Source of the DNA: Sinomonas susongensis
GTDB lineage: Bacteria > Actinomycetota > Actinomycetes > Actinomycetales > Micrococcaceae
Direction: 5' to 3'
Assembly: GCF_005877005.1 (NCBI RefSeq)
Contig: NZ_SSNH01000002.1
Coordinates: forward strand, 186,001 to 250,000
DNA length: 64,000 bases
Every line of letters begins with the position of its first letter. The first letter of the stretch is position 1. Positions 5,427-62,874 of this stretch are shown here, piece by piece. The translations under genes and the position numbers were made by a program. The notes under the pieces are model-generated. The model did not search any database. It was not told the origin of the DNA and was given only the letters and a program-made list of their open reading frames with translations.

Positions 5427-5464
5427 GCGGCCGCTAGTGATGGAAGCGGCCGCTAGTGATGGAA
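5427..5464. repeat. 19-bp perfect tandem duplication over a stop codon
   Basis: Two identical adjacent copies of GCGGCCGCTAGTGATGGAA (plus strand). The right copy contains the last codons and the TAG stop of the small membrane protein gene; the left copy repeats them after the stop. A further partial copy (GTGATGCAA, one mismatch) lies immediately to the left. Confidence 0.97.
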
Positions 5465-5677
5465 GTACGGCACGATGAGGAACACGCCGTACAGGACCGC
5501 GGCACCCGAGAGCGCGTAGCACGCGCTGCTCGCAGCGGCGAGGCCTTTGCGGTTGCTGCGCCTCGGGTCCGCGCTCTCGGCCCGCAGGCGGACACCGAGC
5601 GCGAAGAACAGCACGATGCAGCCCGCGCCGACGACCGTGGCGATTGCGACGATGAGGAAGGCTCCCCAGTCGATCAC
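5453..5677 (-). CDS. Small two-TM membrane protein coupled to pit
   Basis: A 74-residue protein with an N-terminal transmembrane helix (FLIVAIATVVGAGCIVLFFA), a short basic loop with RSNRKG, and a second helix near the C-terminus (ALSGAAVLYGVFLIV), ending VPYFHH. The GTG start overlaps the pit stop by 4 nt (GTGA) and has GGAGGT upstream, so it is translationally coupled to pit. I do not recognise a named family; small membrane proteins after Pit genes occur in related genomes, and a role with the transporter is inference from linkage only. The 3' end is tandemly duplicated. Confidence 0.8.
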   Translation of the reverse strand: MIDWGAFLIVAIATVVGAGCIVLFFALGVRLRAESADPRRSNRKGLAAASSACYALSGAAVLYGVFLIVPYFHH

Positions 5678-6876
5678 GGCTGACCTCCCTTCCCGGCGCG
5701 GCTGCGGGCGGGGAAGCTGACGGCTTCGCTCGCCTCCTCGACCTCGACGACGTTGTGGTGGCCGACGCGCTCGCGCCGGTTGAGCAGGAACATCCACAGG
5801 ATGGCCGCTGCGCCGACGAGGGCGACGGCGACGACTCCCCCGGGCCCGAGCCCGACCACGATGGCGGCCAGCCCGCCGACGACGGCGGCTGCCGGCAGCG
5901 TGAGGACCCAGCCGAGCGCTATCCGACCGGCGGTTCCCCAGCGGATGGAGGTTCCGCGGCGGCCGAGGCCGGAGCCGATCACCGAACCGCTCGTGACCTG
6001 GGTGGTCGAGAGCGCGAAGCCGAGGTGGGACGAGGCGAGGATCGCTGCAGCCGTGCTCGCCTCGGAGGAGAACCCCTGGGCGGGACGCACCTCGGTCAGT
6101 CCGGTGCCCACCGTACGGATGATGCGCCAGCCGCCGGCATATGTGCCGAGGCCGATCGCGGCGGCGCACGCGGCGATCACCCACCACTGGGGGCCGCTTC
6201 CGGGCGTCTGGGCTCCGGCGGAGATGAGGAGGAGGGTGATGATCCCCATGGTCTTCTGCGCATCGTTCGTCCCGTGCGAGAGCGCCACGAGGCTCGAGGT
6301 GAAGATCTGGCCGATCCGGAAGCCTGCCCGTCCCTGATGCAGCTTCTGGCCGGTCTCGGGGTCACGCCGAGCCGTCACGGCGTAGGCGATGCGCGTGCAC
6401 ACCCAGGCTGAGAGGCCCGCGATGATCGGGGCAGCGACCGCCGGGAGGATGACCTTCGAGACGATTCCCGAGAAGTTGACCGACGAGACGCCGATGCCCA
6501 CGACCGCCGCACCGATGAGGCCTCCGAAGAGCGCATGCGAAGAGCTCGACGGGAGTCCGCGGAGCCACGTGAACATGTTCCAGACCACGGCTCCGATGAG
6601 CCCCGCGAAGATGAGCTCGGGGGTGATGTGGACGCCCGGCGAACCTTCCCGGATGATGCCGCTCGAGATGGTCTTCGCCACTTCCGTCGAGAGGAACGCC
6701 CCCACGAGGTTGAGCCCGGACGCTAGCGCGACGGCGGCGCGGGGCTTGATCGCACCGGTGGCGATCGGGGTCGCCATGGCATTCGCGGTGTCGTGGAAGC
6801 CGTTCGTGAAGTCGAAGAAGAGCGCAAGTGCGACGACGAGCGCGATCATGGCGGTGATGTCCACCCGGGTTCCCAT
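5674..6876 (-). CDS. pit: Low-affinity inorganic phosphate transporter (PiT family)
   Basis: Proton- or metal-phosphate symporter of the inner membrane. The 400 residues carry the two PiT signatures in inverted halves: FDFTNGFHDTANAMATPIAT near the N-terminus and ALSHGTNDAQKTMGI in the second half. About ten hydrophobic segments can be counted, and the basic C-terminus is cytoplasmic. The ATG start has no convincing Shine-Dalgarno; a GTG four codons inside is an alternative. It forms a two-gene unit with the small membrane protein that follows. PiT systems usually move metal-phosphate complexes constitutively. No Pho box is visible to me upstream. Confidence 0.95.
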   Translation of the reverse strand: MGTRVDITAMIALVVALALFFDFTNGFHDTANAMATPIATGAIKPRAAVALASGLNLVGAFLSTEVAKTISSGIIREGSPGVHITPELIFAGLIGAVVWNMFTWLRGLPSSSSHALFGGLIGAAVVGIGVSSVNFSGIVSKVILPAVAAPIIAGLSAWVCTRIAYAVTARRDPETGQKLHQGRAGFRIGQIFTSSLVALSHGTNDAQKTMGIITLLLISAGAQTPGSGPQWWVIAACAAAIGLGTYAGGWRIIRTVGTGLTEVRPAQGFSSEASTAAAILASSHLGFALSTTQVTSGSVIGSGLGRRGTSIRWGTAGRIALGWVLTLPAAAVVGGLAAIVVGLGPGGVVAVALVGAAAILWMFLLNRRERVGHHNVVEVEEASEAVSFPARSRAGKGGQP

Positions 6877-6987
6877 CGGAGATCGAGGTTGTCTGGGGGC
6901 GCTGTGCCCGTGCCCCGCGAGTTCACCCCAAGTTCACCATCTGGATGCCGCGAATTCACCCTGCGCCGAGAAGCCATCCTATACCGG

Positions 6988-7069
6988 TGCCCGAGGAGGG
7001 ACTCGAACCCTCACACCTCTCGATACCGCATTTTGAGTGCGGCGCGTCTGCCGATTCCGCCACTCGGGC
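6988..7069 (-). tRNA. tRNA-Leu (anticodon CAA)
   Basis: The cloverleaf folds from the minus strand: acceptor GCCCGAG/CTCGGGC with discriminator A, anticodon stem CCGCA/TGCGG with loop CTCAAAA giving CAA, a long variable arm typical of a class II tRNA, and T arm loop GTTCGAGTC. CCA is not encoded. It lies alone between pit and pdtaR. Confidence 0.97.
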
Positions 7070-7268
7070 CTGCCGCGCAGCTGCCTTTCGGTGCCGCGCG
7101 GGACCACTCTACCGCCCCCGAGGCTGGCACGTCGTCCTCAGCCCGTTGAACCGCGCGAGCGACTGCGCCGCCAGGGGGGCCAGCAACTGGGCAGGCGAAC
7201 TGCGCGGAGGCGACCCTCCCCGGTAGGATCGTCCTAAGCCCACCCCGAATCTGCAGCAAGGAGCCCGA

Positions 7269-7916
7269 GTGTCCGAGAAGACGTCGGAGAAGACAGCCAA
7301 GCCCACGCCGTCGCCCAAGAGCGCGACGCCGTCGGACCAGGCACGTGCCGCGCGCCGCGTGGTAGTCGCGGAGGACGAGACCCTCATCCGCCTCGACATC
7401 ATCGAGATCCTGCGCGGCGAGGGCTTCGACGTGGTCGGCGAGGCCGACAACGGCGAGAAGGCCGTCGCGCTCGCGGAAGACCTTCGCCCGGACCTCGTGC
7501 TGATGGACGTCAAGATGCCCGTCATGGACGGCATCACGGCGGCCGAGAAGATCGTCAAGGCACGCATCGCGCCCGTCGTCCTCCTCACGGCGTTCAGCCA
7601 GAAGGAGCTCGTCGAGCGCGCCCGGGACGCCGGTGCCATGGCGTATGTGGTCAAGCCGTTCACACCGAACGACCTGGTGCCGGCGATCGAGATCGCCCTC
7701 TCGCGCCACGAGGAAATCCGCGCGCTCGAGGCCGAGGTCACCGACCTCCAGGAGCAGTTCGCCACGCGCAAGCTCGTTGAGCGCGCCAAGAGCCTCCTCA
7801 TGACCAAGATGGGGCTCAGCGAGCCCGAGGCGTTCCGGTGGATCCAGAAGACGTCCATGGACCGTCGCCTCAGCATGCGAGAGGTCGCCGAGACCATCAT
7901 CAACCAGGTGAGCTGA
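7269..7916 (+). CDS. pdtaR: ANTAR-domain response regulator, PdtaR type
   Basis: RNA-binding antitermination regulator controlled by phosphorylation from a PdtaS-like histidine kinase. The N-terminal 30 residues are a low-complexity tail. The receiver domain follows, with acidic pocket Glu35/Asp36, phospho-acceptor Asp80 in LVLMDVKMPVMDG, the Thr of VVLLTAFS and Lys in VVKPF. The C-terminal ANTAR helices (about 148-209) contain LMTKMGLSEPEAFRWIQ. The start is GTG with AAGGAG about 6 nt upstream. It stands alone; the partner kinase is not in the window. It is followed by a strong hairpin and converges with pyk. The last codons and the stop lie in a 19-bp tandem duplication. Confidence 0.92.
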   Translation: MSEKTSEKTAKPTPSPKSATPSDQARAARRVVVAEDETLIRLDIIEILRGEGFDVVGEADNGEKAVALAEDLRPDLVLMDVKMPVMDGITAAEKIVKARIAPVVLLTAFSQKELVERARDAGAMAYVVKPFTPNDLVPAIEIALSRHEEIRALEAEVTDLQEQFATRKLVERAKSLLMTKMGLSEPEAFRWIQKTSMDRRLSMREVAETIINQVS

Positions 7917-7941
7917 CGCCGGCCAGGTGAGCTGACGCGGG
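7904..7941. repeat. 19-bp tandem duplication over the pdtaR stop codon
   Basis: Two adjacent copies of CCAGGTGAGCTGACGCCGG, differing at one base (the second ends CGGG). The first copy contains the last codons and the TGA of pdtaR; the second lies just after the gene. Confidence 0.96.
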
Positions 7942-7963
7942 CCTCGAAAAGGCCCGGCACCGA

Positions 7964-8008
7964 GACGACGAGGGCGGCACCCCCAGAAGGGGTGCCGCCC
8001 TCGTCGTC
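7964..8008. terminator. 20-bp perfect stem-loop between convergent pdtaR and pyk
   Basis: Inverted repeat GACGACGAGGGCGGCACCCC with a 5-nt loop (CAGAA). No T-tract follows on either strand, so it fits the GC-rich bidirectional terminators of actinobacteria. It serves both genes by position. Confidence 0.85.
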
Positions 8009-8023
8009 TGACGGGCGGGAGGA

Positions 8024-9508
8024 TCAGACCTCAGGCCACGGGCCAACGTGCTCGCGCGCAGGCTTCACCGCGCCGTCGAGCAGCTGCCCTGCGTCGGCGA
8101 GGTCTCCGACCTTGTGCACGCGCAGCGCGTTCGTCGAGCCGGCAACGCCGGGAGGCGAACCGGCGGCGACTACGACAAGGTCATTCGGCTGGGCCATCCC
8201 GGCCCGCAGGAGGTACTCGTCGACCTGGGCGATCATCTGGTCGGTGTGCTCGGCGAACTCCACCATCCGTGGCTGGATGCCCCAGCACAGGCTCAGGATG
8301 TTGAGCGTCGAGGTGAGCGGCGTGAACGCGAAGATCGGCTTCTGGGGCCGGAGGCGGCTGAGCCTCCGGGCCGAATCGCCCGACTGCGTGAACGTGCAGA
8401 TGTACTTCGCGTCCAGCTGGTCTGCGATGGTCACGGCGGCCCGCGTGATCGCGCCGCCTCGCGTCTTCGGCTGCGAGCCGAGGGGAGGAACGCGCTCGAG
8501 GCCGTGGTCCTCCGTCGACTCGATGATCTTCGCCATCGTGCGCACCGTCTCGATGGGGTACGCCCCAACGCTCGTCTCGCCCGAGAGCATCACGGCGTCT
8601 GCGCCGTCGAGCACCGCGTTGGCGCAGTCGGACGCCTCGGCGCGGGTCGGGCGGGGGTTCTCGATCATCGACTCGAGCACCTGGGTCGCAACGATGACGG
8701 GCTTCGCCCAGCGGCGAGCCAGCTCGATCGCCCGCTTCTGCACGAGCGGAACCTCCTCGAGCGGAAGCTCCACGCCGAGGTCGCCACGGGCGACCATGAT
8801 CGCGTCGAACGCGTCGATGATCTCGTGGAGCTGCTCGACGGCCTGGGGCTTCTCGATCTTGGCGATGACAGGGACGCGGCGGCCCTCCTCGTCCATGATC
8901 GTGTGGACGCGCTCAACGTCGGACGCATCGCGGACGAACGAGAGGGCGATGAAGTCCACACCCCGCCGGAGCGCCCAGCGGAGGTCCGCCTCGTCCTTGT
9001 CGCTCAGCGCCGGGACGTTCACCGCGACGCCGGGAAGGTTGATTCCCTTGTTGTTCGACACCATGCCGCCGACGACGACCTCGGTGACCACCTTCACGTC
9101 GTCGACCGCGGTGGCGCGCAAGGCGACCTTGCCGTCGTCGATCAGGAGCGTGTCTCCGACTGAGACGTCCTCGGTGAGGCTCTTGAGCGTCGTGGAGCAG
9201 ATCTCCTTCGTGCCCGGGACGTCCTCCGTCGTGATCGTGAAGACGTCGCCGGGAGCAAGCTCGTACGGGCCGTCCACGAAGCGGCCGAGGCGGATCTTCG
9301 GGCCTTGGAGGTCGGCCATGATGCCGACTGGCTTGTGGAGCTCGGCCGACGCCTTACGCACGTTCTCGTAGGTCGCGTCGTGCACCGAGTGGTCGCCGTG
9401 GCTCATGTTCAGGCGGGCCACGTCGACGCCGGCCTCGATCACTGCGAGGGTCTTCTCGTAGCTCGAGATGGCCGGCCCAAACGTGGCAACGATTTTCGCT
9501 CGTCTCAT
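8024..9508 (-). CDS. pyk: Pyruvate kinase
   Basis: Last step of glycolysis: phosphoenolpyruvate plus ADP to pyruvate plus ATP, cytoplasmic. The 494 residues have the family length and motifs: RLNMSHGDH near the N-terminus, the catalytic Lys region VIAKIEKPQAVEQLHE, the metal site MVARGDLGVELP, and SGETSVGAYP. The ATG is preceded by GGTGAGG as Shine-Dalgarno, and TAGGGT ends 7 nt before it, so initiation may be leaderless; a GTG three codons upstream is a weaker alternative. It faces pdtaR across a shared hairpin and follows gltD by 127 bp. Confidence 0.98.
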   Translation of the reverse strand: MRRAKIVATFGPAISSYEKTLAVIEAGVDVARLNMSHGDHSVHDATYENVRKASAELHKPVGIMADLQGPKIRLGRFVDGPYELAPGDVFTITTEDVPGTKEICSTTLKSLTEDVSVGDTLLIDDGKVALRATAVDDVKVVTEVVVGGMVSNNKGINLPGVAVNVPALSDKDEADLRWALRRGVDFIALSFVRDASDVERVHTIMDEEGRRVPVIAKIEKPQAVEQLHEIIDAFDAIMVARGDLGVELPLEEVPLVQKRAIELARRWAKPVIVATQVLESMIENPRPTRAEASDCANAVLDGADAVMLSGETSVGAYPIETVRTMAKIIESTEDHGLERVPPLGSQPKTRGGAITRAAVTIADQLDAKYICTFTQSGDSARRLSRLRPQKPIFAFTPLTSTLNILSLCWGIQPRMVEFAEHTDQMIAQVDEYLLRAGMAQPNDLVVVAAGSPPGVAGSTNALRVHKVGDLADAGQLLDGAVKPAREHVGPWPEV

Positions 9509-9635
9509 GTACCTCACCCTAGGGGTTGTGTGGTGAACGTGGATGTCTGGGGGATGAACTTCACGGATTCCGCCGGAGCGGAACGTGTCGGATCAGGCAG
9601 GGGCCCTTTGCTTCTGTCCGGGACCTCTGCGCACG

Positions 9636-11093
9636 TCAGAGGACGGAGATCGCGCGATCCGTCGGAGCCACCGGCGCCGGCAGGATCGTGCTGCCCATCA
9701 GGAACTTGTCGACCTCCGCCGCGCAGGCCCGCCCTTCCGCGATCGCCCACACGATGAGCGACTGGCCGCGGCCGGCGTCGCCCGCCACGAAGACGCCCGG
9801 GGTTGGGGTCATGTACTCGCCGTCGCGGGAGACGTTCCCGCGCTCGTCGAACGGAGCATTGACCTGCTCGGGGAGGCCCGACTCCTCTGCCCCTGTGAAT
9901 CCGAGGGACAGGAGGACGAGGTCCGCCGGAATGACGCGCTCAGTGCCGGCCTTCGGGATGCGCCTGCCGTCCACGTATTCCGTCTCGGCGACCTTGAGGC
10001 CCGTCACCTTCCCGTCCTCGCCGATGTATTCGACCGTCGAGGCAAGGTACGTCCGCTCGCCGCCCTCCTCGTGGGCGCTGGCAACTTCGAAGAGCGTAGG
10101 GAACATCGGCCACGGCTGGTGGCCCGGACGCTCCGCGGGAGGCTGCTTGCCGATGGCGAGAGTCGTGACCGAGGCAGCCTGCTGGCGATGCGCGGTGCCG
10201 AGGCAGTCGGCACCTGTGTCGCCGCCGCCGAGGATCACAACGTGCTTGCCTCGCGCGTCGATCTGATCCTCGACCACATCGCCGGCGACGACGCGGTTGG
10301 CCTGGACGAGGTACTCCATGGCGAAGTGGACGCCGTCGAGCTCGCGGCCCGGGATCTTGAGGTCGCGCGGAACCGTCGCTCCCGTCGCCACGACCACCGC
10401 GTCGTACCGGCGGCGCAGCTGGTCCCAGCTCACGTCGCGGCCGACCTCGACGCCGGTGCGGAAGCGCGTGCCCTCGGCCTTCATCTGCGCGAGACGGCGC
10501 TCGAGGATCTCCTTCTCCATCTTGAAGTCCGGGATGCCATAGCGCAGGAGGCCGCCGATCCGGTCGTCGCGCTCGTACACGGCGACCGTGTGGCCGACCC
10601 GCGTGAGCTGCTGCGCGGCCGCGAGCCCGGCGGGCCCGGAGCCGACGACGGCGACCGTCTTGCCCGTGAGGCGCGCCGGCGGAAGGGGCTCGACATAGCC
10701 GCCCTCGAAGGCCTGCTCCGCGATCGAGACCTCGATCTGCTTGATGGTCACGGCGGGCTGGTTGATGCCGAGCACGCACGCGGACTCGCACGGCGCCGGG
10801 CACAGCCGGCCCGTGAACTCCGGGAAGTTGTTGGTCGCGTGCAGGCGCTCGCTCGCATCCTGCTCCTTGCCGCGCCACGTGAGGTCGTTCCACTCGGGAA
10901 TGAGGTTACCGAGCGGGCAGCCGTGGTGGCAGAAGGGGATACCGCAATCCATGCAGCGTGCAGCCTGGCGCTTGAGGACGCCGTTCTCCTGGGCCTCGTA
11001 GACCTCCTTCCAGTCCATGATGCGGACGGGGACGGGACGGCGCGGCTGCGTCTCACGCTGCCGAACCTTCAGGAATCCGCGTGGGTCAGCCAC
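9636..11093 (-). CDS. gltD: Glutamate synthase (NADPH) small subunit
   Basis: Passes electrons from NADPH through FAD to the large subunit for glutamate formation from glutamine and 2-oxoglutarate. The 485 residues begin with the cysteine clusters of the dihydropyrimidine-dehydrogenase-like ferredoxin domain, [14 protein letters not shown] and [12 protein letters not shown], followed by an FAD motif ([15 protein letters not shown]) and an NADPH motif ([13 protein letters not shown]). The GTG start overlaps the end of gltB by 8 nt and has GGAGGTG upstream. This is the standard GltBD partner arrangement. Confidence 0.97.
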
Positions 11094-14000
11094 CGGTCAC
11101 CTCCAGGATGCGAGACCAAACTTCTTCCCCGTCCGGGTCCAGGCCCTCTTCGAGGGCCCCCAGACGGGTCTGCTGCACCGCCGCGTAGTCGCGGGGCAGC
11201 ACCTTCGTCATGCGGGCTGCCGTGTCGTCGAAGTTGTCGAGCAGGCGCTGCCCCAACTGCGAGCCCGTCTCCTCGACGTGCTTGGCGATGAGATTCCGCA
11301 CGATGTCCCGGTCCTCGTCGTCGAGTTCGAGGAGCGTGAGCTCGCCCGAGCCGAGGGCCTGGGTGTTGACCTTCGCCGCGTCGAGGTCGAGGACGAACGC
11401 GGTGCCGCCCGACATCCCTGCGCCGAAGTTGCGGCCCGTGCGCCCGAGGATGACCGCCTGGCCACCCGTCATGTATTCGCAGCCGTGGTCGCCGATGCCT
11501 TCGACGACGGCGGTCGCGCCCGAGTTGCGCACGAGGAACCGCTCGCCGACCATTCCGCGGAGGAAGATCTCCCCGCTCGTGGCGCCGTAGCCGATCACGT
11601 TGCCCGCGATCACGTTGTCCTCGGCCGGGAACACGTTGCTGCGGTCGGGACGGACGATGACGCGGCCTCCGGACAGGCCCTTCGCGACATAGTCGTTCGA
11701 GTCGCCGAACAGCCGCAGCGTGATGCCTGCGGGCAGGAACGCCGCGAGGGACTGCCCGGCAGTACCGGTGAGGGTCACGTCGATCGTGTCCGTCGCGAGC
11801 GTGTCGGTGCCGAACGTACGGGTGACCTCGTGGCCCAGCATCGTCCCCACCGAGCGGTCGGTGTTGACGACCGGGAGGCTGATCTTGACCGGGCTGCGGT
11901 CCATGAGCGCCTCTTGCGCCATCTCGATGAGCTGGACGTCGAAGTGCTTGTCGAGCTCGTGGTTCTGGCCCGTCGTGTTGCGCAGCGGCGCGTCCTCGTC
12001 GAAGTCCATGCCCGCGAGGATCGGCGTGAGGTCGAGCCCCTCGGCCTTCCAGTGGTCGATCGCGTCCTTCGTGTCGAGGAACTCTGAACGACCGATCGCC
12101 TCTTCGAGCGAGCGGAAGCCGAGCTGGGCCAGGATCTCGCGGATCTCCTCCGCGATGAACTCGAAGAAGTTCACCACGAACTCGGGCTTGCCCGTGAAGC
12201 GCGCCCGCAGCTCAGGATTCTGCGTTGCGACGCCGACGGGGCACGTGTCCAGATGGCACACGCGCATCATGACGCAGCCCGAGACGACGAGCGGTGCCGT
12301 GGCAAAACCGAACTCCTCGGCACCCAGCAGCGCAGCGATGACGACGTCGCGGCCCGTCTTCAGCTGGCCGTCGACCTGGACCACCACGCGGTCCCGCAGC
12401 CCGTTGAGCATGAGCGTCTGCTGGGTTTCGGCGAGGCCGAGCTCCCACGGGACGCCCGCGTGCTTGAGCGAGTTCAGCGGCGAGGCGCCCGTACCGCCGT
12501 CGTGCCCCGACACGAGCACGACGTCGGCCTTCGCCTTCGTCACGCCCGCGGCGACCGTGCCGATCCCCACCTCGGAGACGAGCTTGACGTGGACCCGTGC
12601 GCTCGGGTTGGCACGCTTGCAGTCGTAGATGAGCTGCGCGAGGTCCTCGATCGAGTAGATGTCGTGGTGTGGGGGCGGCGAGATGAGGGTCACGCCCGGC
12701 GTCGAGTGGCGGGTCCGCGCCACCCACGGGTAGACCTTCTGGGCCATGAGCTGGCCGCCCTCGCCGGGCTTCGCCCCCTGGGCCATCTTGATCTGGATGT
12801 CGGTCGCATTGGTCAGGTAGAGGCTGGTCACGCCGAAACGGCCGGACGCGACCTGCTTGATGGCCGAGCGCCGCTCGGGGTCGAGCAGACGGTCGACGTC
12901 CTCGCCGCCCTCCCCCGTGTTCGACCGGGCGCCCAGACGGTTCATCGCTATCGCAAGCGTCTCGTGGGCTTCCTTCGAGATGGACCCGTAGCTCATCGCG
13001 CCGGTCGAGAACCGCTTCACGATGCTCGCGACGGACTCGACGTCGTCCACGGGGATCGCGGGGCGAAGCCCCTCGCGGAACGCGAGAAGGCCGCGCAGCG
13101 TCATGAGGTTCTTGGACTGGTCGTCGACCCCCTTCGTGTACGCCTTGAACACGTCATAGCGGCGCTCGCGCGTCGCGTGCTGCAGGCGGAAGACGGTCTC
13201 CGGGTTGAACAGGTGCGGCTCGCCGTCGCGACGCCACTGGTACTCGCCGCCGTTCAGGAGCGCCCGATGCGGCTGCTCGATCCCGGACGCCGGGTACGCC
13301 ATCTCGTGGCGGGCTGCGACCTCGGCGGCAATGACGTCGAGCCCGACGCCGCCGAGCTGGCTGTGCGTGCCGGCGAAGAATTCGTCGACGAGGTCTTGCG
13401 AGAGGCCGAGCGCTTCGAACGTCTGGGCGCCGCAGTAGGAGGCGACAGTCGAGATGCCCATCTTGGACATGATCTTGAGCACGCCCTTGCCGAGGCCCTT
13501 GATGAGGTTGTAGACCCCGTCCTCAGGGGTGACGCCCGGCAGGTCGCCCGAGCGGATGAGCTCCTCGACGGACTCCATCGCGAGATAGGGGTTCACCGCG
13601 GACGCGCCATAGCCGATGAGCGTGGCGACATGGTGCACCTCACGGACGTCCCCGGCCTCGACGACGAGCGCGGTCTTCGTACGGTTCGCGCTGCGCAGGA
13701 GGTGGTGGTGGACGGCGGAGACGAGGAGCAGAGACGGGATCGGGGCCCACTGCGCGTTCGAGTCGCGGTCGGAGAGCACGACGTACTGCACCCCGCGGTT
13801 GATGGCTCCCGAGACCTGCTCGCAGATCTCCGTCAGCCGGGCGCGCAGCGCCGCCTCGCCGCCCTCGGGACGGTAGAGGCCGCGTACCTTGATCGCGATC
13901 CGGTCGCCGTGGCTGTTCTCGATGTTGGCGATCTTCGCGAGCTGGTCGTTGTTGATCACCGGGAACGGCAGGATGACCTGCCTCTCCTTGACCTGCCCCA

Positions 14001-15696: not shown

Positions 15697-15794
15697 GACG
15701 AAACGTCCTTCCTCCTGATCGATTCGCGACAGGGGACAACGCTGGCCCCGGCGTTGCTGGCCGCAAGGGGCCCAGCACGGCGCTGATTACTGGA

Positions 15795-15800
15795 ATTGTA
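15795..15800 (-). promoter_or_regulatory. Candidate -10 element for gltBD
   Basis: TACAAT on the minus strand, five of six matches to TATAAT, about 98 bp upstream of the gltB ATG. No good -35 is found at 17 bp; a GGCGGC/GCCGCC hairpin lies in that place instead. Confidence 0.45.
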
Positions 15801-15838
15801 GGGGCGGCTCCGCGCCGCCGAACAGCGTCAGGTGCCTC

Positions 15839-25210: not shown

Positions 25211-25761
<551 letters not shown>

Positions 25762-31514: not shown

Positions 31515-32449
31515 TCGAACCTCATTCCGCCGGCGTTCCACGCACCGCGGGCCCACTCGGCCGCGGCCATCATCTTCTTCCCGGCGGGCTGGACGCGGAC
31601 AAGCTCGAGTGCGTGCGTAGCCGTCCCGACGAGGAGCGCCTTGCCGTCCCACGAGAGGACGCCCGACGGGAGTCCTTCGACGTCGGGGCGCAGCCGTGGG
31701 GGCTCGAGCTTGAAGCGCTGGCCAGCCAGGACGGTCCATGCCCCGGGCTCCGGAGTCACTCCGCGCGCTCGTCGGTCGAGCGCCCGAGCCGGCTGCCTCC
31801 AGTCGAGCCGCCCATCGTCGAGGGAGAGCTTGGGGGCATAGCTCGGCTCCCCTTCCTGCGGGCGCGGCACGAGGCTCTGGTCCTCGATTCCCTCGAGCGT
31901 CCGCAGCAGCAGGCCTGCACCCCTCTCCGCGAGTTCGGCGAGCAGCTCCCCCGCCGTCGCATCCGGGCGCGGCGTCATCGCCATGGTTCCGTAGACGGGA
32001 CCCGTGTCGAGGCCCTCCTCGAGCCGGAAGGTCGAAGCACCGACCACGTCGTCGCCGTGGATGACCGAGTGCTGCACCGGTGCGGCACCGCGCCACGCCG
32101 GAAGGAGGGAGAAGTGCAGGTTCACCCAGCCGCGTCTCGGCACCTCGAGTGCTGCGGGGGGAACGAGGCCCCCGAACGCGACGATCGCCGCTACATCCGG
32201 GGCGAGCGATGCGAGCTCGGAGGTGACTTCGGCGGTGATCCGCGTGGCCTTGACGATGGGCAGGCCGAGCTCCGCGGCGCGGACCGCGACGGGCGACGGC
32301 GTGAGCACCCGCTTTCGGCCGACCGGCGCATCCGGGCGGGTCAGGACCCCGACGAGCTCGAAGCTGCCGTCTGCCACTCCGTCTTCGCCGGCAATGCGGT
32401 CAAGGGACGGGACCGCAACAGCCGGCGTCCCTGCGAAGAGGACCCTCAC
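31511..32449 (-). CDS. fmt: Methionyl-tRNA formyltransferase
   Basis: Formylates initiator Met-tRNA using 10-formyl-THF. The 312 residues contain MRVLFAGTPAVAVPSLDRI, AIVAFGGLVPPAALEV, the catalytic Asn-less Actinobacteria-like block NLHFSLLPAWRGAAPVQHSV with the His and Asp of HGDDVVGAS, and a C-terminal OB-like domain. The GTG overlaps the def stop by 4 nt (GTGA), with GGGAG upstream. Paired with def, which later removes the formyl group. Confidence 0.97.
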   Translation of the reverse strand: MRVLFAGTPAVAVPSLDRIAGEDGVADGSFELVGVLTRPDAPVGRKRVLTPSPVAVRAAELGLPIVKATRITAEVTSELASLAPDVAAIVAFGGLVPPAALEVPRRGWVNLHFSLLPAWRGAAPVQHSVIHGDDVVGASTFRLEEGLDTGPVYGTMAMTPRPDATAGELLAELAERGAGLLLRTLEGIEDQSLVPRPQEGEPSYAPKLSLDDGRLDWRQPARALDRRARGVTPEPGAWTVLAGQRFKLEPPRLRPDVEGLPSGVLSWDGKALLVGTATHALELVRVQPAGKKMMAAAEWARGAWNAGGMRFE

Positions 32450-33054
32450 GCGGTCGCTCCCGACGCGGCGCCGCCGAAGGAAGCTCCCCCTCCGAAGGAG
32501 GCTCCCCTGCCGAACGCGGAACCGACGTGGCCGGCGCGCCTTGTGACCGTCTCGCTCGCGACGCTCGAGTAGTCGAGGGCCCGGATGGCCCGCTGCGCCG
32601 CCCGGCGGTCATCCCCCTCGAGCCGGTCGACGAACAGCACGCCGTCCAAGTGGTCGGTCTCGTGCTGGAAAGCCCTCGCCAGCATCCCTTCCGCCGCGAT
32701 CTCCACCGGGTTCCCGTGCACGTCATAGCCGCGGGCGCGTGCAGCGCGGCGGCGTCGGACGGGGAACGCCACGCCCGGGATGCTCAGGCATCCCTCGACG
32801 ACATCCTCCTGGAAGTCGTCGGAGAGCGTGAGGACCGGGTTCACCAGATGCCCCCGCTGTCCGTCGATCTGGTACGTGAACACCCTCTGGCCGACACCGA
32901 TCTGGGGAGCGGCAAGGCCTGCCCCGTCGACGTCCTCCATCGTCTCCATCATGTCCGCGACGAGACGCTCGAGTTCGGGCCCGAATTCGGTCACAGGGTC
33001 CGCGGGCGTGCGCAGCACGGGGTCGCCGATGATCCGGATGGGCAGGATGGCCAT
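32446..33054 (-). CDS. def: Peptide deformylase
   Basis: Removes formyl from nascent proteins. The 202 residues contain the three family motifs GAGLAAPQIG, EGCLSIPG (Cys89) and QHETDHLDG (His131, Glu132, His135). The C-terminal ~35 residues form a Gly/Ala-rich tail with two FGGGAS/FGGAAS-like repeats, longer than usual and likely disordered. The ATG has only AAAGG about 11 nt upstream. First gene of the def-fmt-rsmB-rpe unit. Confidence 0.97.
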   Translation of the reverse strand: MAILPIRIIGDPVLRTPADPVTEFGPELERLVADMMETMEDVDGAGLAAPQIGVGQRVFTYQIDGQRGHLVNPVLTLSDDFQEDVVEGCLSIPGVAFPVRRRRAARARGYDVHGNPVEIAAEGMLARAFQHETDHLDGVLFVDRLEGDDRRAAQRAIRALDYSSVASETVTRRAGHVGSAFGRGASFGGGASFGGAASGATA

Positions 33055-34931: not shown

Positions 34932-35003
34932 GGGCGATTGGCGCAGCGGTAGCGCGCTTCCCTGACACGGAAGAGGTCACTGGTTCGATCCCAGTATCGC
35001 CCA
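34932..35003 (+). tRNA. tRNA-Val (anticodon GAC), copy 2
   Basis: Identical over all 72 nt to copy 1. Last gene of the cluster, directly followed by a terminator. Confidence 0.98.
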
Positions 35004-35008
35004 CTCAC

Positions 35009-35033
35009 ACGGCGCCCTGCGGGCGCCGTTTTT
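35009..35033 (+). terminator. Rho-independent terminator of the tRNA cluster
   Basis: CGGCGCCC/GGGCGCCG stem with a TGC loop followed by TTTTT, 5 bp after the last tRNA. Confidence 0.95.
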
Positions 35034-35074
35034 GCTTCGGGCGCCGTTCTTGCTTCGAGCGCCGTTCTCGCTTC
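35021..35074. repeat. Three 18-bp tandem copies of the terminator 3' half
   Basis: GGGCGCCGTTTTTGCTTC, then GGGCGCCGTTCTTGCTTC, then GAGCGCCGTTCTCGCTTC, with a decayed fourth copy (GGCGCTGTTTTCCGTAC). The unit is the right arm of the terminator plus its T-tract. The 210 bp from here to the next promoter show nothing else I can name. Confidence 0.93.
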
Positions 35075-35212
35075 GGCGCTGTTTTCCGTACGCTCCGTTT
35101 TCTGCTGAGTGCGCGTCATGAAGCAGGCGAAGCCCGCTCTCAACTACCACGTAGCCACGTGTCCGCCGCACCCAGCAGCCTCCTTCGGGAAACCCCCGAC
35201 CTCCGAAGAGAG

Positions 35213-35433: not shown

Positions 35434-35465
35434 ATGCCGGTACCGCTGAGAGGCGGGACCGGCAT
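35434..35465. terminator. Stem-loop between the 32-codon gene and zapE
   Basis: ATGCCGGTACCGC pairs with GCGGGACCGGCAT (one mismatch) around a TGAGAG loop, followed by TTCTG on the plus strand. Shared by the convergent genes. Confidence 0.8.
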
Positions 35466-35499
35466 TTCTGCGTCCACGGACCGGCACTTCTGCGTTCAG
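35456..35499. repeat. 22-bp tandem duplication after zapE
   Basis: GGACCGGCATTTCTGCGTCCAC and a directly adjacent copy with three substitutions. The first copy is the right arm of the preceding hairpin; the second ends 5 bp from the zapE stop. (Shown motif exceeds the unit by none; only 22 bp per copy.). Confidence 0.9.
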
Positions 35500-35504: not shown

Positions 35505-36647
35505 TCAGGACCGCTCGTGCGCCTGCGCCTCGCGGGCCAGGGCTGTCAGCCTGGACACCGCCCGGAAGTACTTCTTGAGATACCCGCCCGCCATCATCTC
35601 CTCCGTGAAGAGCTGGTCGAACGGAACACCTGAGGCCAGAATCGGCACGTCCTTGTCGTAGAGACGGTCCGCGAGCACGACGAAACGCAGGGCGACAGCC
35701 TGCTCCTCGATCGTGTGCACGTCCTTCCAGACGATCCCGTCGATCCCGTCGATGAGCTGCCGGTACCGGCTCGGGTGCACCCCGGCGAGGTGCTTCAGAA
35801 GGACGCCGAAGTCGTCGACGGCGACGACGCCGCCGTCGAACTCGGCGTTCATCCGCGCGTCGAGCTCGTCATTGCGCAAAGGCACCGGCGGCGCCGGCAG
35901 GCCACGGTGCCGGTAATCCTCGCCGTCGATGCGCACGACGTCGAACTGGTCGGCCAGGACCTGGATCTCGCGCTGGAAGTCGACTGCGGCGAACCTGCCT
36001 TCGCCCAGCGCGCCCGGAAGCGTGTTCGACGTCGCGGCGAGCTTGACGCCGGCGTCGGCGAGCTCGCGCATGAGCCTCGACATGAGCACCGTGTCGCCCG
36101 GGTCATCGAGTTCGAACTCGTCGATGCAGACGAGCCGGTAGGAGCTCAGGGCCTCGACCGTCTTCCGGAACGACAGTGCTCCGACGAGGTTTGTGTACTC
36201 GACGAACGTGCCGAAGGCCTTGGGGCCGGGCGAGGTGTGCCAGAGCGAGGCGAGGAGGTGGGTCTTGCCGACTCCGAACCCGCCGTCGAGGTAGATGCCG
36301 GCGCGCGCCTTGGGCTTGCTCCCGTTTCCGCCGAAGAGCTTCGAGAAGAGCCCCCCGCCGCTGCGTCCGCCGTCGATGGACGCGCCGAAGTCCTGGAGCG
36401 ACCTGACGGCCGCCGCCTGCGAGGGCTGCGCGGGGTCGGGCCGGTAGCTCTCGAACGACACCTCACCGAAGCGCGACGATGGATGGAGGCCTGCGAGGAG
36501 CTCGTCCACGGACACTCTGGGCGTGCGGGTGGTCAGGTGTGCGACAGTCGCCAAGGAATCCGTCCGTCTCGGGCCCTGAGGGGCATACATCGGCATGTGG
36601 GGCAGTGGCAAGGATATCGCGCGGCCGGACGTCATGTTGCGCCCCAT
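35505..36647 (-). CDS. zapE: Cell division protein ZapE (AFG1-like ATPase)
   Basis: P-loop ATPase of the AFG1/LACE1 family; E. coli ZapE acts at the division ring. The 380 residues show VSFESYRPDPAQPSQ, Walker A YLDGGFGVGKTHLLASLW, Walker B VCIDEFELDDPGDT, sensor region AATSNTLPGALGEGR and a C-terminal FRAVSRLTALAR. The start is uncertain: ATGs at residues 1, 5, 18 and 20 are all possible, and the one at residue 5 has GGGGCG upstream. Divergent from the rhodanese gene, convergent with the 32-codon gene. Confidence 0.92.
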   Translation of the reverse strand: MGRNMTSGRAISLPLPHMPMYAPQGPRRTDSLATVAHLTTRTPRVSVDELLAGLHPSSRFGEVSFESYRPDPAQPSQAAAVRSLQDFGASIDGGRSGGGLFSKLFGGNGSKPKARAGIYLDGGFGVGKTHLLASLWHTSPGPKAFGTFVEYTNLVGALSFRKTVEALSSYRLVCIDEFELDDPGDTVLMSRLMRELADAGVKLAATSNTLPGALGEGRFAAVDFQREIQVLADQFDVVRIDGEDYRHRGLPAPPVPLRNDELDARMNAEFDGGVVAVDDFGVLLKHLAGVHPSRYRQLIDGIDGIVWKDVHTIEEQAVALRFVVLADRLYDKDVPILASGVPFDQLFTEEMMAGGYLKKYFRAVSRLTALAREAQAHERS

Positions 36648-50349: not shown

Positions 50350-50361
50350 CCGGGACGGGTC

Positions 50362-51012: not shown

Positions 51013-51034
51013 TACCGGACGCGCCCCCAGCCGC

Positions 51035-53388: not shown

Positions 53389-53389
53389 C

Positions 53390-54229: not shown

Positions 54230-54343
54230 GAGGGCGCGGTCCTTCGGTTGTGGGTTGCTGAATGATGGATTCGCCTATGTCACCTCGGCGGCCCCGCTTG
54301 CACGGGAACGGTCAGAAGTCTAGCCCAGCGCGCTGCAAAGCCT

Positions 54344-55378: not shown

Positions 55379-55433
55379 GGGCTCTCGTCGCGCCTCGTGC
55401 GCTACGGGACGGGAACTCTCGTGCACGCCGCGC

Positions 55434-56411
55434 CTAGAAGAGGGCGACCTTCGGTGTGCGCGGGAAGATCTCGTCGAGCTCGGCGAGGTCCTCGGCGCTC
55501 GGCTGCCAGGAAGCGGCCTCGGCATTCTCACGGATCTGCTCGGGCTTCGTCGCGCCCGCGATGACGCTCGCGACCGACGGCTGCGCCGCGAGCCACGAGA
55601 ATGCGACCTGGAGCTCGGTCAGGCCTCGCTCCTCCGCGAAGGCGGAGAAGCGGTCGAGCTGGTCCCAGTCGGCGTCGTGCACAAGGTTCCTGCGCGTATG
55701 CGAGAGCCGGGAGCCCTCGGGTGCGACGCCGCGCGAGTACTTGCCCGTGAGCAGCCCGTTCGCGAGCGGGAAGTACGGCAGGACCCCGAGGCCGTACGCC
55801 TCGGCTGCCTGGGTCACCTCGAGCTCGGCGCGGCGGTCCAGGAGGTTGTAGTGGTTCTGGCTCGAGACGAACGGCGTGTAGCCGCCGATCCGCGCCGCGA
55901 ACTCCGCCTCGGCAACCTGCCAGCCGGCCCGGTTCGAGTGCCCGATGTAGCGGACCTTGCCCTCATGGATGAGGTCGTCGAGCGCCGAGAGCGTCTCCTC
56001 GATCGGCGTCTCGGGGTCCGGGGTGTGGAACTGGTAGAGGTCGATCCAGTCCGTGTCCAGCCGGCGCAGCGACGCCTCGACGGCCTGCTTGATGTAGCGG
56101 CGCGAGCCGCGTGCACCGAAGTCCCGGCCGTTCGCGCCGTGCATGTCCATGCCGAACTTCGTGGCGACCACGACGTCGTCGCGCCGCCCCTTGAGGGCAC
56201 GGCCGAGCATCTCCTCGCTCAGCCCCGGCGTCTTGCCGTACACGTCCGCCACATCGAACAGGGTGATCCCGGCGTCGATGGCCGCGTGGACGACGGCGTC
56301 GGTGCCCTCCTGTGTCTCGGTCGGGGTGTTGGCGCGGCCCAGGTTGTTGCACCCCAGGCCAACGGTGGACACGGTCAGGCCAGAACGGCCCAGACGGCGA
56401 TAGTCAGTCAT
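55434..56411 (-). CDS. Aldo/keto reductase
   Basis: NADPH-dependent carbonyl reductase of 325 residues in the AKR fold. The tetrad is Asp53 and Tyr58 in FDVADVYGK, Lys85 in VVATKFG and His near 129 in LYQFHTPD. TPFVSSQNHYNLLDRR and VIAGATKPEQI are the usual later blocks. TAGGCT ends 6 nt before the ATG (leaderless type). The physiological substrate is unknown; linkage to the hydrolase may be chance. Confidence 0.93.
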   Translation of the reverse strand: MTDYRRLGRSGLTVSTVGLGCNNLGRANTPTETQEGTDAVVHAAIDAGITLFDVADVYGKTPGLSEEMLGRALKGRRDDVVVATKFGMDMHGANGRDFGARGSRRYIKQAVEASLRRLDTDWIDLYQFHTPDPETPIEETLSALDDLIHEGKVRYIGHSNRAGWQVAEAEFAARIGGYTPFVSSQNHYNLLDRRAELEVTQAAEAYGLGVLPYFPLANGLLTGKYSRGVAPEGSRLSHTRRNLVHDADWDQLDRFSAFAEERGLTELQVAFSWLAAQPSVASVIAGATKPEQIRENAEAASWQPSAEDLAELDEIFPRTPKVALF

Positions 56412-56472
56412 AGCGCCAGCCTACTCGCGCCCGGCGGCGCAGCTGGCAGCCCGCCTCCGGCCTCCCTTGCGC

Positions 56473-57030
56473 TCAGAGCGAGAAGCTGTGGATCCCGGCG
56501 GGGCCGTGCTTGAGCCTGAAGTCCTCGGGCGCATCCGCCTTGGCGACGGCAATTGAGAGCTTCGTGAAGTCGCTCGTGTTCTCGCGCAGGCACGTCTTGA
56601 CGGCAGCGACGGCCTTGGAGGAATCGACCGTGCGCATGAGGATCGTAAGGCGCCCGGCACCGATGGCGCTCTCCTCGACCGTCCCGAGGCCCCGCCACGC
56701 GAGGTGTGCCGTGAGCGCGCGCACGGCCTGGCGCTCGAGGAAGCGGTCCCGTTCGGTCCCGGTCTGGCTCTTGAGCGCGAACTGGGCCGCGACGCGGTCC
56801 TGCTCCGCCTCGGGGATCTCGGCGAATCCATCGTCCTCGCACTGGGACGCGAAGGCGGCGAGCAGACTCTCGGCCGCGTCGGCGTCGACGTTGTCCGTCT
56901 CCTTTGTGGTCGAGACGTGCCCGACGATCCCGCGGTTGACGACGAACTGCGCGGTGTCCTCGTCGTGCCAGGCCTCGCGGAATTGGAGGGTGCCGTCGTC
57001 CTGTTTGCGGTAGAGGCGCAGAAAACTCAT
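56473..57030 (-). CDS. Uncharacterised protein in the dxs operon
   Basis: A 185-residue soluble protein I cannot assign. It begins [20 protein letters not shown] and contains GRLTILMRTVDSSKAVAAVK and a C-terminal FRLKHGPAGIHSFSL. Charged and mixed alpha/beta. ATG with AAGGAAGGA upstream; the ATG overlaps the stop of the DUF402 gene (ATGA), so it is the third gene of a coupled dxs-DUF402 run. No metal or nucleotide motif is evident. Confidence 0.75.
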   Translation of the reverse strand: MSFLRLYRKQDDGTLQFREAWHDEDTAQFVVNRGIVGHVSTTKETDNVDADAAESLLAAFASQCEDDGFAEIPEAEQDRVAAQFALKSQTGTERDRFLERQAVRALTAHLAWRGLGTVEESAIGAGRLTILMRTVDSSKAVAAVKTCLRENTSDFTKLSIAVAKADAPEDFRLKHGPAGIHSFSL

Positions 57031-57623
57031 GTGAAGTCCTTCCTTCCTTGGGCGAGCCACGCATCGGCGATGCCGTCGAACGGGCCAGTCCCCTCACGTA
57101 CAAGACCGAGAATGCGCTCGCATTCGGCCTTCACAGCCCGTACAAGCTCATCGGGATATGCCATGCTCGCGCTGTGCTCTTCGAATTCGTCCTCGTCGTC
57201 GACGAACACGCCGCGGCCGGCCGCACGGATCACGTCGAGGTCCATGTCGATCATGTGGAACTCGACCGTCCCGTCGGGTTCTTCCCGGATCCGCCGCCAC
57301 GAGAGGTCCCACGCGAGGTCCACGTAGACGCGGAACTCGCCGGGATTCGCGTCGTCGTAGAACGTCGCCGCATAGTTGCCCTCGCGGGGCACGAGCAGCA
57401 CGGCGTCGGTGAGCGTGTAGAGCGCCATGCCGGGCCGCGAGATGAACTCGCCCCGCCCCTGGTACGTCCACCAGCCGTGCTCGTCCTCGCCAAGGTGGAT
57501 CCCGGGCACGACCCAGTGCGCTCCGCCGTCCCACTTGCGGTTCCGCGCGACGACGAGATCGCCCGGGCGCGGAAAGTCAGCAGGGCTGTGGCCGGCGAAG
57601 GGGATGGCGGAACCTTGGGTCAC
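57027..57623 (-). CDS. DUF402 domain protein (possible nucleotide phosphatase)
   Basis: A 198-residue protein with the DUF402/FAU-1 pattern: [58 protein letters not shown] and [12 protein letters not shown]. Staphylococcal relatives are nucleoside di-/triphosphatases; the same activity here is inference. The acidic cluster would bind Mg2+. The GTG overlaps the dxs stop by 4 nt, and the stop overlaps the next gene. Confidence 0.8.
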
Positions 57624-59596
57624 AGCTGCGGGAGGCTCCCGGTTCGCGGCGCCGTCTGCCCGGGGAGGGGACGGGCGAAGGGGACCTTCATGCCGAGCAC
57701 CTGGGCGACGACGTCGTGCGTGATCTGCTGCGCGGTGAGGCCCACTCTGGCGAGGACCTCGGATCGCGTCCCGTGGTCGAGGAACTCGGCGGGGAGCCCG
57801 ACCTCGTTGAGCGCGGTGTCGACGCCGACCGCCCTCATCTCCTGCCGGATCCGCGAACCCACCCCGCCCGCACGGACGCCGTCCTCAAGGCACACGACGA
57901 TCCGGTGTTCGGCGGCCAGCCGGAGGACGCTCTTCGGAACGGGCAGGACCCACCGCGGGTCCACCACCGTGGAGCTGATGCCCTGGCGGTCGAGCCGCTC
58001 GGCGACGTCCAACGCGAGATCGCTCATCGCTCCGACGGCGACGAGGAGCACGTCCCCGCCCTTGCCTGCCTCGGTTCCGGTGCGGCGCAGCACGTCGACG
58101 CCGTCGGCGAGGCGCTCGAGGGCCTCCGTCTCCGGACCGACACTCCCCTTCGAGAACCTCACGACGGTTGGCGCGTCCGAGACGGCGACGGCTTCCCGCA
58201 GCTCCTCGCGGAGCCTCGTGGCGTCACGCGGGGCCGCAAGATGCAGGCCGGGAACACTCTGCACGAGGGCCATGTCCCACTGGCCGTGATGGCTCGCGCC
58301 GTCGGGTCCCGTCACGCCCGCTCGGTCGAGCACGATCGTGACTCCGGCTTTGTGCAGGGCCACGTCCATGAGGAGCTGGTCGTATGCGCGGTTGAGGAAC
58401 GTCGAGTAGACGGCCACGACGGGGTGGAGACCACCGAAGGCCATGCCTGCCGCGCTCGTCATGGCGTGCTGCTCGGCGATGCCGACGTCGAAGACGCGAT
58501 CGGGGTGGCGGGCGGCGAACTTGTGCAGGCCCACAGGGATGAGCATGGCGCCGGTGATCCCGACGACGTCCGGCCGCTCGTCGGCGATCGCAGCGATCTC
58601 GTCGGCGAAGACGCTCGTCCAGGACGCGGGGCCCCCCACGGTCAGGGGTTCGCCCGTAAGGGGGTCGATGATGCCGACGGCGTGGAACTGGTCCGCCTCG
58701 TTCGCACGCGCCGGGGCATAGCCACGGCCCTTCTCGGTCATCGCGTGCACGATCACGGGTCCGGCGAAGTGCTTCGCGGCGGTGAGGGCGTTCTCGATGG
58801 CCCGTTCATCGTGCCCGTCGACAGGTCCGAGGTACTTGAGGCCCAGGTCCTCGAACATGCCCTGCGGTGCCCACCAGTCCTTGACGCCCTTCTTTGCGGC
58901 GTGAAGGCCCTTGTAGGTGAACCGGCCCACAGGTCCGCCCTCTTGGAGGCGCTTCTTCCAGAACGCGAGCGTGCCCTCGTAGGCGGGCGCTACGCGCACG
59001 GCGTCGATCGCGGGACGGAGGGACGCGAGGTAGTCGGCGAAGCCGCCGACCGTCGGGGCGTACGAGCGGCCGTTGTCGTTGACGACGATCACAATCCGGC
59101 GGTCCTTATCGGCCGCGATGTTGTTGAGCGCCTCCCAGGCCATGCCTCCCGTGAGTGCCCCGTCGCCTATGACGACGACGGTGTGGCGGTCGCCTTGGCC
59201 GGTCAGCTTGTGGGCCTTGGAGATGCCGTCCGCCCACGAGAGGGACGACGACGCGTGCGAGGACTCGACGATGTCGTGTTCGCTCTCGGCACGGGAGGGG
59301 TAGCCCGAGAGGCCCCCCTGCTGCCGGAGGGAGGAGAAGTCCTGCCGGCCGGTGATGAGCTTGTGGACGTAGGACTGGTGGCCCGTGTCGAAGATGATGC
59401 TGTCTCTCGGCGAATCGAAGACCCTGTGGATCGCGAGGGTGAGTTCGACGACGCCGAGGTTCGGGCCCAGATGGCCTCCGGTCTGCGCGACGTTGCGGAT
59501 GAGGAAGCGACGGATCTCGTCGGCCAAATCCGTCAGTTCCTGGGAGGTGAGGCGGTCGAGGTCCTTCGGTCCGCGGATGCTCTCCAGAATGCCCAA
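57620..59596 (-). CDS. dxs: 1-deoxy-D-xylulose-5-phosphate synthase
   Basis: First step of the MEP isoprenoid pathway: pyruvate plus glyceraldehyde 3-phosphate, TPP-dependent. The 658 residues include [26 protein letters not shown], the TPP/Mg loop [18 protein letters not shown], and [16 protein letters not shown] (the catalytic Glu). The best start is TTG with AAGGAG 6 nt upstream (second residue Gly-Ile-Leu); further upstream the frame stays open but has no good site. Coupled to DUF402. Confidence 0.97.
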
Positions 59597-59673
59597 GGGC
59601 TTCTCCTTGCTCGAAATCTGCTCAACCCACTGTAGCCCCTTCGGTGAGGGGCGCCCGGGTCCAGCCGAAACGG

Positions 59674-59705
59674 CCGAGGGCCCCCACCGCGGTGGAAGCC
59701 CTCGG
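59674..59705 (-). terminator. Terminator after acnA
   Basis: CCGAGGGC/GCCCTCGG outer stem with an inner CCACCGCGGTGG palindrome, 42 bp after the acnA stop. No T-tract, as for other GC-rich terminators here. Confidence 0.75.
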
Positions 59706-59747
59706 ACGTAGGGAGGCAACAGCCTCGTCAGCGATGCGCGCTGCGCA

Positions 59748-62597
<2,850 letters not shown>

Positions 62598-62653
62598 TGC
62601 ACCACTCCTCTCGCAACACTGCCATCTTTGCCGCGCACAGTGACCGTTGCTAG

Positions 62654-62672
62654 TTAGGCAAGCCTTAGCTAG
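62654..62672. promoter_or_regulatory. IdeR/DtxR-like iron box upstream of acnA
   Basis: TTAGGCAAGCCTTAGCTAG matches the 19-bp consensus TTAGGTTAGGCTAACCTAA at about 14 positions and has a palindromic core (AAGGCTTGCC). It lies 57-75 bp before the acnA start, a normal operator distance. Confidence 0.65.
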
Positions 62673-62752
62673 CTTGCGTCCGACGCGGACGGGCTTTCAG
62701 CGCCAAGGCCATCCTAGTTCGGGGCCCGTGCGGGAGCGATGGGCAAGAGATG

Positions 62753-62874
62753 TCTCCCCCACCCTGGTCCCGCTGCCCTACGAGCCGGGCTTCAGCAGTG
62801 CCACTGTCCGCACTCTCCCCCACCCTGGTCCCGCTGCCCTACGAGCCGGGCTTCAGCAGTGCCACCGTCTCTAC
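62753..62874. repeat. 61-bp tandem duplication over the methyltransferase stop codon
   Basis: A 52-bp block (starting TCTCCCCCACCCTGGTCCCG) occurs twice with a 61-bp period. The right copy contains the last codons and the TAG stop of the RNA methyltransferase; the left copy repeats them outside the gene. The remaining 9 bp of each unit have diverged. Confidence 0.96.

Follow-up and report, generated by a model that had tools for sequence, protein, structure and literature searches.

Replication slippage between microhomologies yields short tandem duplications, arranged head to tail and 10–60 bp long. Bacterial VNTR and minisatellite loci, for example the MIRU-VNTR and ETR loci of mycobacteria, are likewise short head-to-tail arrays in intergenic DNA, and one VNTR array is reported to begin 40 bp past a stop codon and to differ from strain to strain (PMC2734929). 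The Borg tandem repeats of methane-oxidising archaea are reported to be similarly recent, independently arising arrays, although host and scale differ (PMC9879509). The TAACTGA repeats of Beggiatoaceae are also short direct repeats in intergenic DNA, but those loci share one 7-base sequence, whereas each locus described here has its own (PMC4679880).

The window, by which we mean the whole 64-kb stretch of Sinomonas susongensis DNA that was analysed, contains arrays whose copies also run head to tail, as found by TRF and by an ungapped finder. In contrast to VNTR and minisatellite loci, however, the S. susongensis arrays mostly have about two copies, lie on the stop codon itself and occur at many genes, and the stop-straddling ones have no common sequence. 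We found no description of such a stop-codon pattern in searches of the open-licence literature.

Sample, tools and definitions

By TD we mean a short head-to-tail tandem duplication and by stop-straddler a TD that covers a gene's stop codon. The S. susongensis genome is a 3.77-Mb draft in 36 contigs, of which the sampled part comprised 1,166 kb (31%; 68.7% G+C). Comparison genomes were G009 (3 contigs) and G002 (1 contig) from the same genus, G015 from the same family and G018 from another family; pooled rates combine S. susongensis, G009 and G002 and exclude G015, G018 and the named relatives. The last comprise 79 loci (496 kb of the corresponding gene region) taken from the best 80 named matches of one window protein, mostly Arthrobacter and allies, among which the records closest to S. 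susongensis may be missing. One contig, L099, is titled Vibrio cholerae and carries an Arthrobacter-like regulator at 88% identity; it is probably a contaminated or mislabelled record, and was excluded from the TD count of the named loci and from the junction analysis.

Arrays were found with TRF and with the ungapped finder (period 12–150, minimum identity 0.85, minimum score 14), whose score cut-off misses units shorter than about 14 bp and old copies. Genes came from a custom codon-usage caller, and every TD in the 1,166 kb was assigned to a class. The null for stop-straddlers gave equal chance to all placements save those wholly within a gene.

Arrays in the window

The ungapped finder reports 7 arrays in the window, against a mean of 0.05 and a maximum of 1 in 60 dinucleotide shuffles. 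These arrays and the features around them are as follows.

5418–5465: TD of 19 bp, 2.5 copies, over TAG 5453–5455 of the minus-strand gene 5453–5677 (TRF and ungapped finder)
5453–5677, minus strand: 74-aa gene, no Pfam match, TAG within the array, start uncertain
7269–7916, plus strand: ANTAR response regulator (Pfam PF00072 and PF03861)
7904–7943: TD of 19 bp, 2.1 copies, over TGA 7914–7916 of the plus-strand gene (TRF and ungapped finder)
7963–8009, plus strand: strong terminator-like hairpin, intact, downstream of TD 7904–7943; z −7.4 over a 94-nt stretch
25211–25247: TD of 18 bp, 2.1 copies, over TGA 25231–25233 of the minus-strand gene (TRF and ungapped finder)
25231–25704, minus strand: ribH, 6,7-dimethyl-8-ribityllumazine synthase (Pfam PF00885)
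32474–32514, minus strand: imperfect 18-bp array inside CDS 32446–33054, period divisible by 3
35020–35076, plus strand: 18-bp array, 3.2 copies, built from the hairpin that follows tRNA-Val 34932–35004, namely its 3' arm and T-run (TRF and ungapped finder)
35456–35495: TD of 22 bp, 1.8 copies, intergenic, 9 bases away from the stop at 35505 (ungapped finder only)
35505–36509, minus strand: AFG1-like ATPase gene, adjoining TD 35456–35495
62753–62869: TD of 61 bp, 1.9 copies, over TAG 62839–62841 of the minus-strand gene (TRF and ungapped finder)
62839–63783, minus strand: RNA (uracil-5-) methyltransferase-like gene (Pfam PF05958); the gene call continues to about 64158, past the window edge

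An earlier, sequence-only reading of the window had reported duplications of 18–61 bp over the stop codons of four genes, all of which both programs recover, and two more at transcript ends near 35.0 and 35.5 kb. The latter are also present, just beyond those ends, the array at 35456–35495 being absent from the TRF list at score 30. Array 5418–5465 starts 5 bases past the stop of a converging plus-strand gene (4870–5412); the gene that it straddles has matches in 11 of the 15 genus genomes, S. susongensis included, and its open frame continues upstream of the assigned start. The response regulator at 7269–7916 is presumably PdtaR-like. The first hairpin after tRNA-Val (35009–35029) is intact, with a fold z of only −1.5 over a 41-nt stretch. 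In the 61-bp array, the unit consists of the gene tail, TAG and about 31 bp, and is then repeated. Between the methyltransferase gene and an aconitase gene (59748–62588), at 62640–62680, lies a TTAGGCAAGCCTTAG palindrome that we take to be DtxR/IdeR-box-like.

Duplications are concentrated at stop codons

Across the sampled 1,166 kb of S. susongensis we counted 121 TDs, in classes that number in the tens: 49 in CDS, 25 stop-straddlers, 7 start-straddlers, 2 straddling both, 21 in co-directional gaps, 10 in convergent gaps, 5 in divergent gaps and 2 past the last called gene. Stop-straddlers thus make up 25 of the 72 non-CDS TDs, with 8.3 expected (p=2e-7), so the enrichment proposed from the window alone holds beyond it. 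It also recurs in related genomes, with 8 stop-straddlers among 17 non-CDS TDs in G009 (1.8 expected, p=1.6e-4), 4 among 10 in G002 (1.0 expected, p=0.015) and 4 among the 16 non-CDS TDs of the named relatives (1.2 expected, p=0.03). Neither outcome that had been named as refuting the proposal, no enrichment at stops or no recurrence in relatives, was thus observed. In G015, both non-CDS TDs straddle a stop (0.2 expected), these being the only two in 400 kb. A 250-kb control from E. coli K-12 contained no short non-CDS TD; its two arrays, one in frame within a gene and one a 91-bp intergenic repeat, are too few for a location test.

Two further statements of the sequence-only reading concerned where duplications are missing. 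The first, that no comparable tandem repeats were noticed inside coding sequence, is not quite right, given the array at 32474–32514 in the window and the 49 of 121 TDs that lie in CDS in the sample. The second, that 5' regions appear to lack them, is nearly right, although the 7 start-straddlers and 5 divergent-gap TDs of S. susongensis are exceptions. Per kb of possible placements, the pooled density is 1.79 at stops (37 TDs) and 0.41 at starts (9 TDs); in gaps it is 0.59 when convergent (15 TDs), 0.28 when co-directional (28 TDs) and 0.11 when divergent (6 TDs). TDs are therefore 4.4-fold denser in stop-straddling than in start-straddling placements, and 16-fold denser than in divergent ones. 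In S. susongensis, density falls from 2.47 per kb at the stop to 0 at 80–120 bp and is 0.68 past 120 bp, and the start-side bins, with all gaps counted, range from 0 to 0.48 per kb.

Frame, junctions and age

The units of stop-straddlers are copies of each gene's own tail. In an 850-kb subset, the stop codon lies within the first copy in all 18 straddled-stop rows listed, in one of them by its last base only, and the protein is therefore unchanged. Periods not divisible by 3 occur in 20 of the 25 stop-straddlers of S. susongensis, compared with 1 of 49 TDs in CDS and none of 7 start-straddlers. The rule at starts is not absolute, since one start-straddler in G009 and one in G002 have a frame-breaking period. 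We considered selection for a spare in-frame stop and rejected it, as the period is divisible by 3 in only 5 of 25 straddlers.

Junction homology (L−p) of recent two-copy straddlers, all samples pooled, has a median of 0 (n=31), against simulated medians of 1 (blunt copying) and 5 (4-bp homology). Three of the 31 have a value of at least 4, and 9 are negative because the copies are incomplete at their edges. The junctions of recent straddlers thus resemble those of a blunt copy, without 4-bp microhomology, in a test that covers homologies of at least 4 bp. Slippage between microhomologies would give the same product, but slippage between microhomologies of several bases does not fit these values.

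Recent TDs of S. susongensis (identity at least 0.97) number 10 at stops, 4 in convergent gaps, 6 in co-directional gaps, none in divergent gaps and 2 at starts. They are in equal excess at stops, so slower decay of stop-straddlers is not the cause of the peak.

Probable tolerance at the border between two units

We favor, with a probability of about two in three, a reading in which TDs arise widely and survive where no functional element contains the whole duplicated unit, as at the border that a stop codon forms. Short TDs, mostly of 13–25 bp, would form all over the genome with little or no flanking homology. Duplication of an interval [x, x+p) would leave everything to the left of x+p and everything to the right of x complete, and could therefore harm only those elements that wholly contain the unit. 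Within a gene, only a p that is a multiple of 3 would preserve the frame; a TD over a start would sit inside the unit formed by promoter, ribosome site and CDS; and one within a hairpin would break the terminator. A TD across a stop, in contrast, would copy the border of two independent units, CDS and terminator, and harm neither. Selection would then leave a peak at stops and in the short stretch between stop and terminator. Arrays would turn over, gain copies and decay, giving each species its own set, in which now and then an old array, for example the 61-bp one, is kept and homogenised.

The distribution of periods agrees with what such tolerance predicts, as frame-breaking sizes are free at stops and near-absent in CDS and at starts. 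Several other observations concern the gene end itself. In the comparison of S. susongensis with G009, a single species pair, large indels of any kind (12–100 bp) number 40 over the 3247 columns at −10 to +15 around stops, whereas the 6360 columns farther than 15 bp upstream of starts contain 23, a rise of about 3.4-fold near stops. Identity in the same pair is minimal 0–10 past the stop, at 0.789, a value equalled only by the far 90-column bin. We used total indel counts here, as the pairwise alignment scored a single large tandem insertion over all zones, others being missed because of gap placement. Pooled TD density is 0.18–0.24 per kb inside hairpins and 0.05 per kb in the post-hairpin DNA of the last 80 bp ahead of the next start. 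Relative to the best hairpin, 42 of 61 TDs near 3' ends lie wholly before it, 12 partly overlap it, 5 are inside it and 1 comes after it, a class that is undercounted because the count takes in TDs up to 60 bp from a stop; the remaining one is at an end without a hairpin. Terminator breakage, which had been suggested as a source of the arrays, is thus unlikely as a general cause.

Much of the stop peak, then, matches tolerance: there is an indel hot spot after stops, few TDs lie in hairpins and the protein stays intact. We infer that tolerance is probably the main cause of the peak and that the copies probably form in the way set out above. There are several implications. First, the border between functional units would be a simple rule for the survival of short duplications. 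Second, stop-straddling TDs could be a source of new 3' tails and of minisatellites. Finally, TDs may be a footprint by which a bacterial duplication process that needs almost no homology can be measured.

A residue at stops and a possible process linked to 3' ends

Tolerance in its simplest form does not account for all stop-straddlers. A simple model that assumes a single rate, whether or not called hairpins and a 5' unit of 0–120 bp are masked, predicts 3.6–5.1 of them among the 37 frame-breaking TDs of S. susongensis, where 20 are found, and the one-rate fit fails. The same model gives about 1 for G009, where 4 of 11 are found (p about 0.01–0.02), and about 0.7 for G002, where 2 of 6 are found (p 0.10–0.18, not significant). 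In addition, TDs ought to be tolerated in the spacer before a hairpin no less than at the stop, but stop-straddling units before a hairpin number 22 in 9.7 kb against 8 spacer-only units in 10.3 kb, a pooled density ratio of 2.9 (CI 1.2–7.5, p=0.009). Nor does the simple model predict that TDs are not sparser in post-hairpin DNA than in the spacer: in co-directional gaps there are 14 in the 29.9 kb beyond the hairpin that lie over 80 bp from the next start, against 2 in 6.2 kb of spacer. TDs also rise more steeply at stops (4.4-fold over start-straddling and 16-fold over divergent placements) than large indels do near them (about 3.4-fold). A modest stop-codon excess stays beyond tolerance.

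The sequence-only reading had proposed a mechanism linked to 3' ends, in which a mutational process raises TD formation around the stop and selection only trims the result. Its source could be breaks or template switching from convergent or terminating transcription, or the naked mRNA left after ribosome release. As a replacement for tolerance we regard such a process, and such a source, as possible but rather unlikely. The 2.9-fold excess over the spacer speaks for it, as does the density at convergent stops (22 in 6.5 kb), which is 3.0 times that at co-directional stops (14 in 12.4 kb; p=0.0013). The convergent excess is not significant among hairpin-bearing ends with the unit before the hairpin, however, where 13 in 3.75 kb at convergent ends compare with 9 in 5.99 kb at co-directional ones (2.3-fold, p=0.077). 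The fall in S. susongensis to 0 at 80–120 bp also favors it, but the bin of highest density there is −10 to 0, on the CDS side, and not downstream as naked mRNA or terminators would give; in G009 the top bin is +10 to +20. General indels peak at the same place as TDs, which also speaks against such a process. The other-family genome G018 points both ways: its TDs are dense 10–30 bp past stops (8 in 3.1 kb), but it has no stop-straddler excess (3 of 31 non-CDS TDs, 2.3 expected). Finally, independent TDs have arisen at one orthologous stop, that of gene 5453, with a unit of 19 bp in S. susongensis and 15 bp in G008. The proposal thus survives in part, in that the residual 2.9-fold and 3.0-fold excesses allow a collision-type contribution, whereas much of the peak fits tolerance.

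A more specific form adds to tolerance a process, active in the genus, that raises TD formation itself at stops and most at convergent pairs, is independent of Ku and nearly homology-free, and is coupled either to translation termination or to transcription that collides; we consider this slightly more doubtful still. If the residual excess were mutational, gene ends would be linked to DNA damage in bacteria.

Improbable origins: end joining, dispersed families and artefacts

The blunt junctions led us to consider end joining, in which fill-in of staggered breaks followed by Ku/LigD joining would give blunt duplications. The lack of 4-bp microhomology suits this route, and so does the occurrence of Ku, which is matched in 15 of 15 genus genomes and has no match in TD-poor G015 (2 non-CDS TDs in 400 kb); to our knowledge E. 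coli K-12, in which 250 kb held no short non-CDS TD, lacks Ku. Among the named relatives, however, TDs are about equally frequent with and without Ku. The comparison covers 40 of the 79 loci, 20 from genomes with a Ku match and 20 from genomes without; non-CDS TDs number 5 with and 6 without, where 2 of the 5 come from a genome with a fragment Ku match, genome completeness is not given and 5 of the 16 TDs of the named loci lie in the genomes outside the 40. Moreover, both stop-straddlers in these 40 loci (L107 and L129) belong to genomes without a Ku match. Ku is seemingly not required, these loci lend no support to Ku-dependent scars as an account of the arrays, and Ku/LigD joining as their origin is improbable.

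Insertion of a dispersed, MIRU-like repeat family at 3' ends is a still less probable origin. Such families exist. S. susongensis has a dispersed intergenic tandem family of about 31–32 bp (C1 41726, 239217, 383452, 383625 and 690203), and several gene ends of G009 (C1 about 2288372–2424998) carry a tandem family of 22-bp units built around a palindromic AGTGGCCACT core, with 18 near-matches in 400 kb, of which all 14 listed follow stop codons, and no match in the sampled parts of S. susongensis, G002, G015 and G018. G009 has 2 of its 8 straddlers in such sequence-sharing groups, and G002 has 1 of its 4. However, an all-against-all comparison of arrays gave, at the threshold used, 14 matching pairs of 2556 (5 in a shuffled control), and none of the 25 straddlers of S. 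susongensis is in any of them, in keeping with the earlier remark that the straddled genes share no sequence; the units, moreover, are copied from each gene's own tail. When members of matching pairs were removed by hand from the pooled counts, 34 straddlers and 8 convergent-gap arrays remained, so the contrast between stops and convergent gaps is not weakened.

An assembly or gene-calling artefact, conceivable for a 36-contig draft with genes from a custom caller, deserves next to no credence, since the pattern repeats in the 3-contig G009 and single-contig G002 genomes, arrays have diverged copies and the stops agree with orthologous protein ends.

Turnover among orthologues

Straddlers are mostly species-specific. 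Among 16 gene-end rows with a TD in S. susongensis and an orthologue in G009, 2, both from one convergent site with a different period, have a TD in G009; conversely, the same two rows are the only ones shared among 12 G009 gene-end rows with a TD. The 61-bp locus behaves differently from this majority. We compared it at 10 of the 15 genus loci and found a copy of the gene tail 32–33 bp past the stop in six species, S. susongensis and five others, at the same offset, each copy matching its own species' gene tail best (with one tie). G010 has no copy, and G005, G008 and G013 have at most a weak remnant. Copy number is 2 or 3 between species (one genome per species), with three in G006 and G001. 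The simplest reading is one old duplication followed by homogenisation of the copies.

A 61-bp TD over the stop of another gene in G009 (C1:2412185–2412328) shares the G-rich motif ATCAGGGTGGSGGA with the array at 62753, which may be chance or a hot spot. A genus-wide pattern search gave 20 matches, against 7 for a reversed-pattern control; 6 of the 20 are at the two known loci, and the arrays of S. susongensis and G001 are not among the 20. We considered a shared inserted element at the 61-bp loci and set it aside.

Array 25211–25247 has no TD in G009 or, by the finder, at 12 further orthologous gene ends, and array 5418–5465 has none in the G009 orthologue. The G011 (L302) orthologue of gene 5453 has a partly decayed 18-bp direct repeat from the stop codon, seen by eye where the finder is silent. 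Array 35456–35495 has a related partial direct repeat in G009, also by eye. The TD over the stop at 7914–7916 occurs, by eye, in S. susongensis only among 15 genus orthologues. The spacer that separates the response-regulator stop from its hairpin shows, by eye, a tandem insertion that distinguishes G014 from G003 (L261 and L262), two genomes that look alike in this region; it is probably a recent gain.
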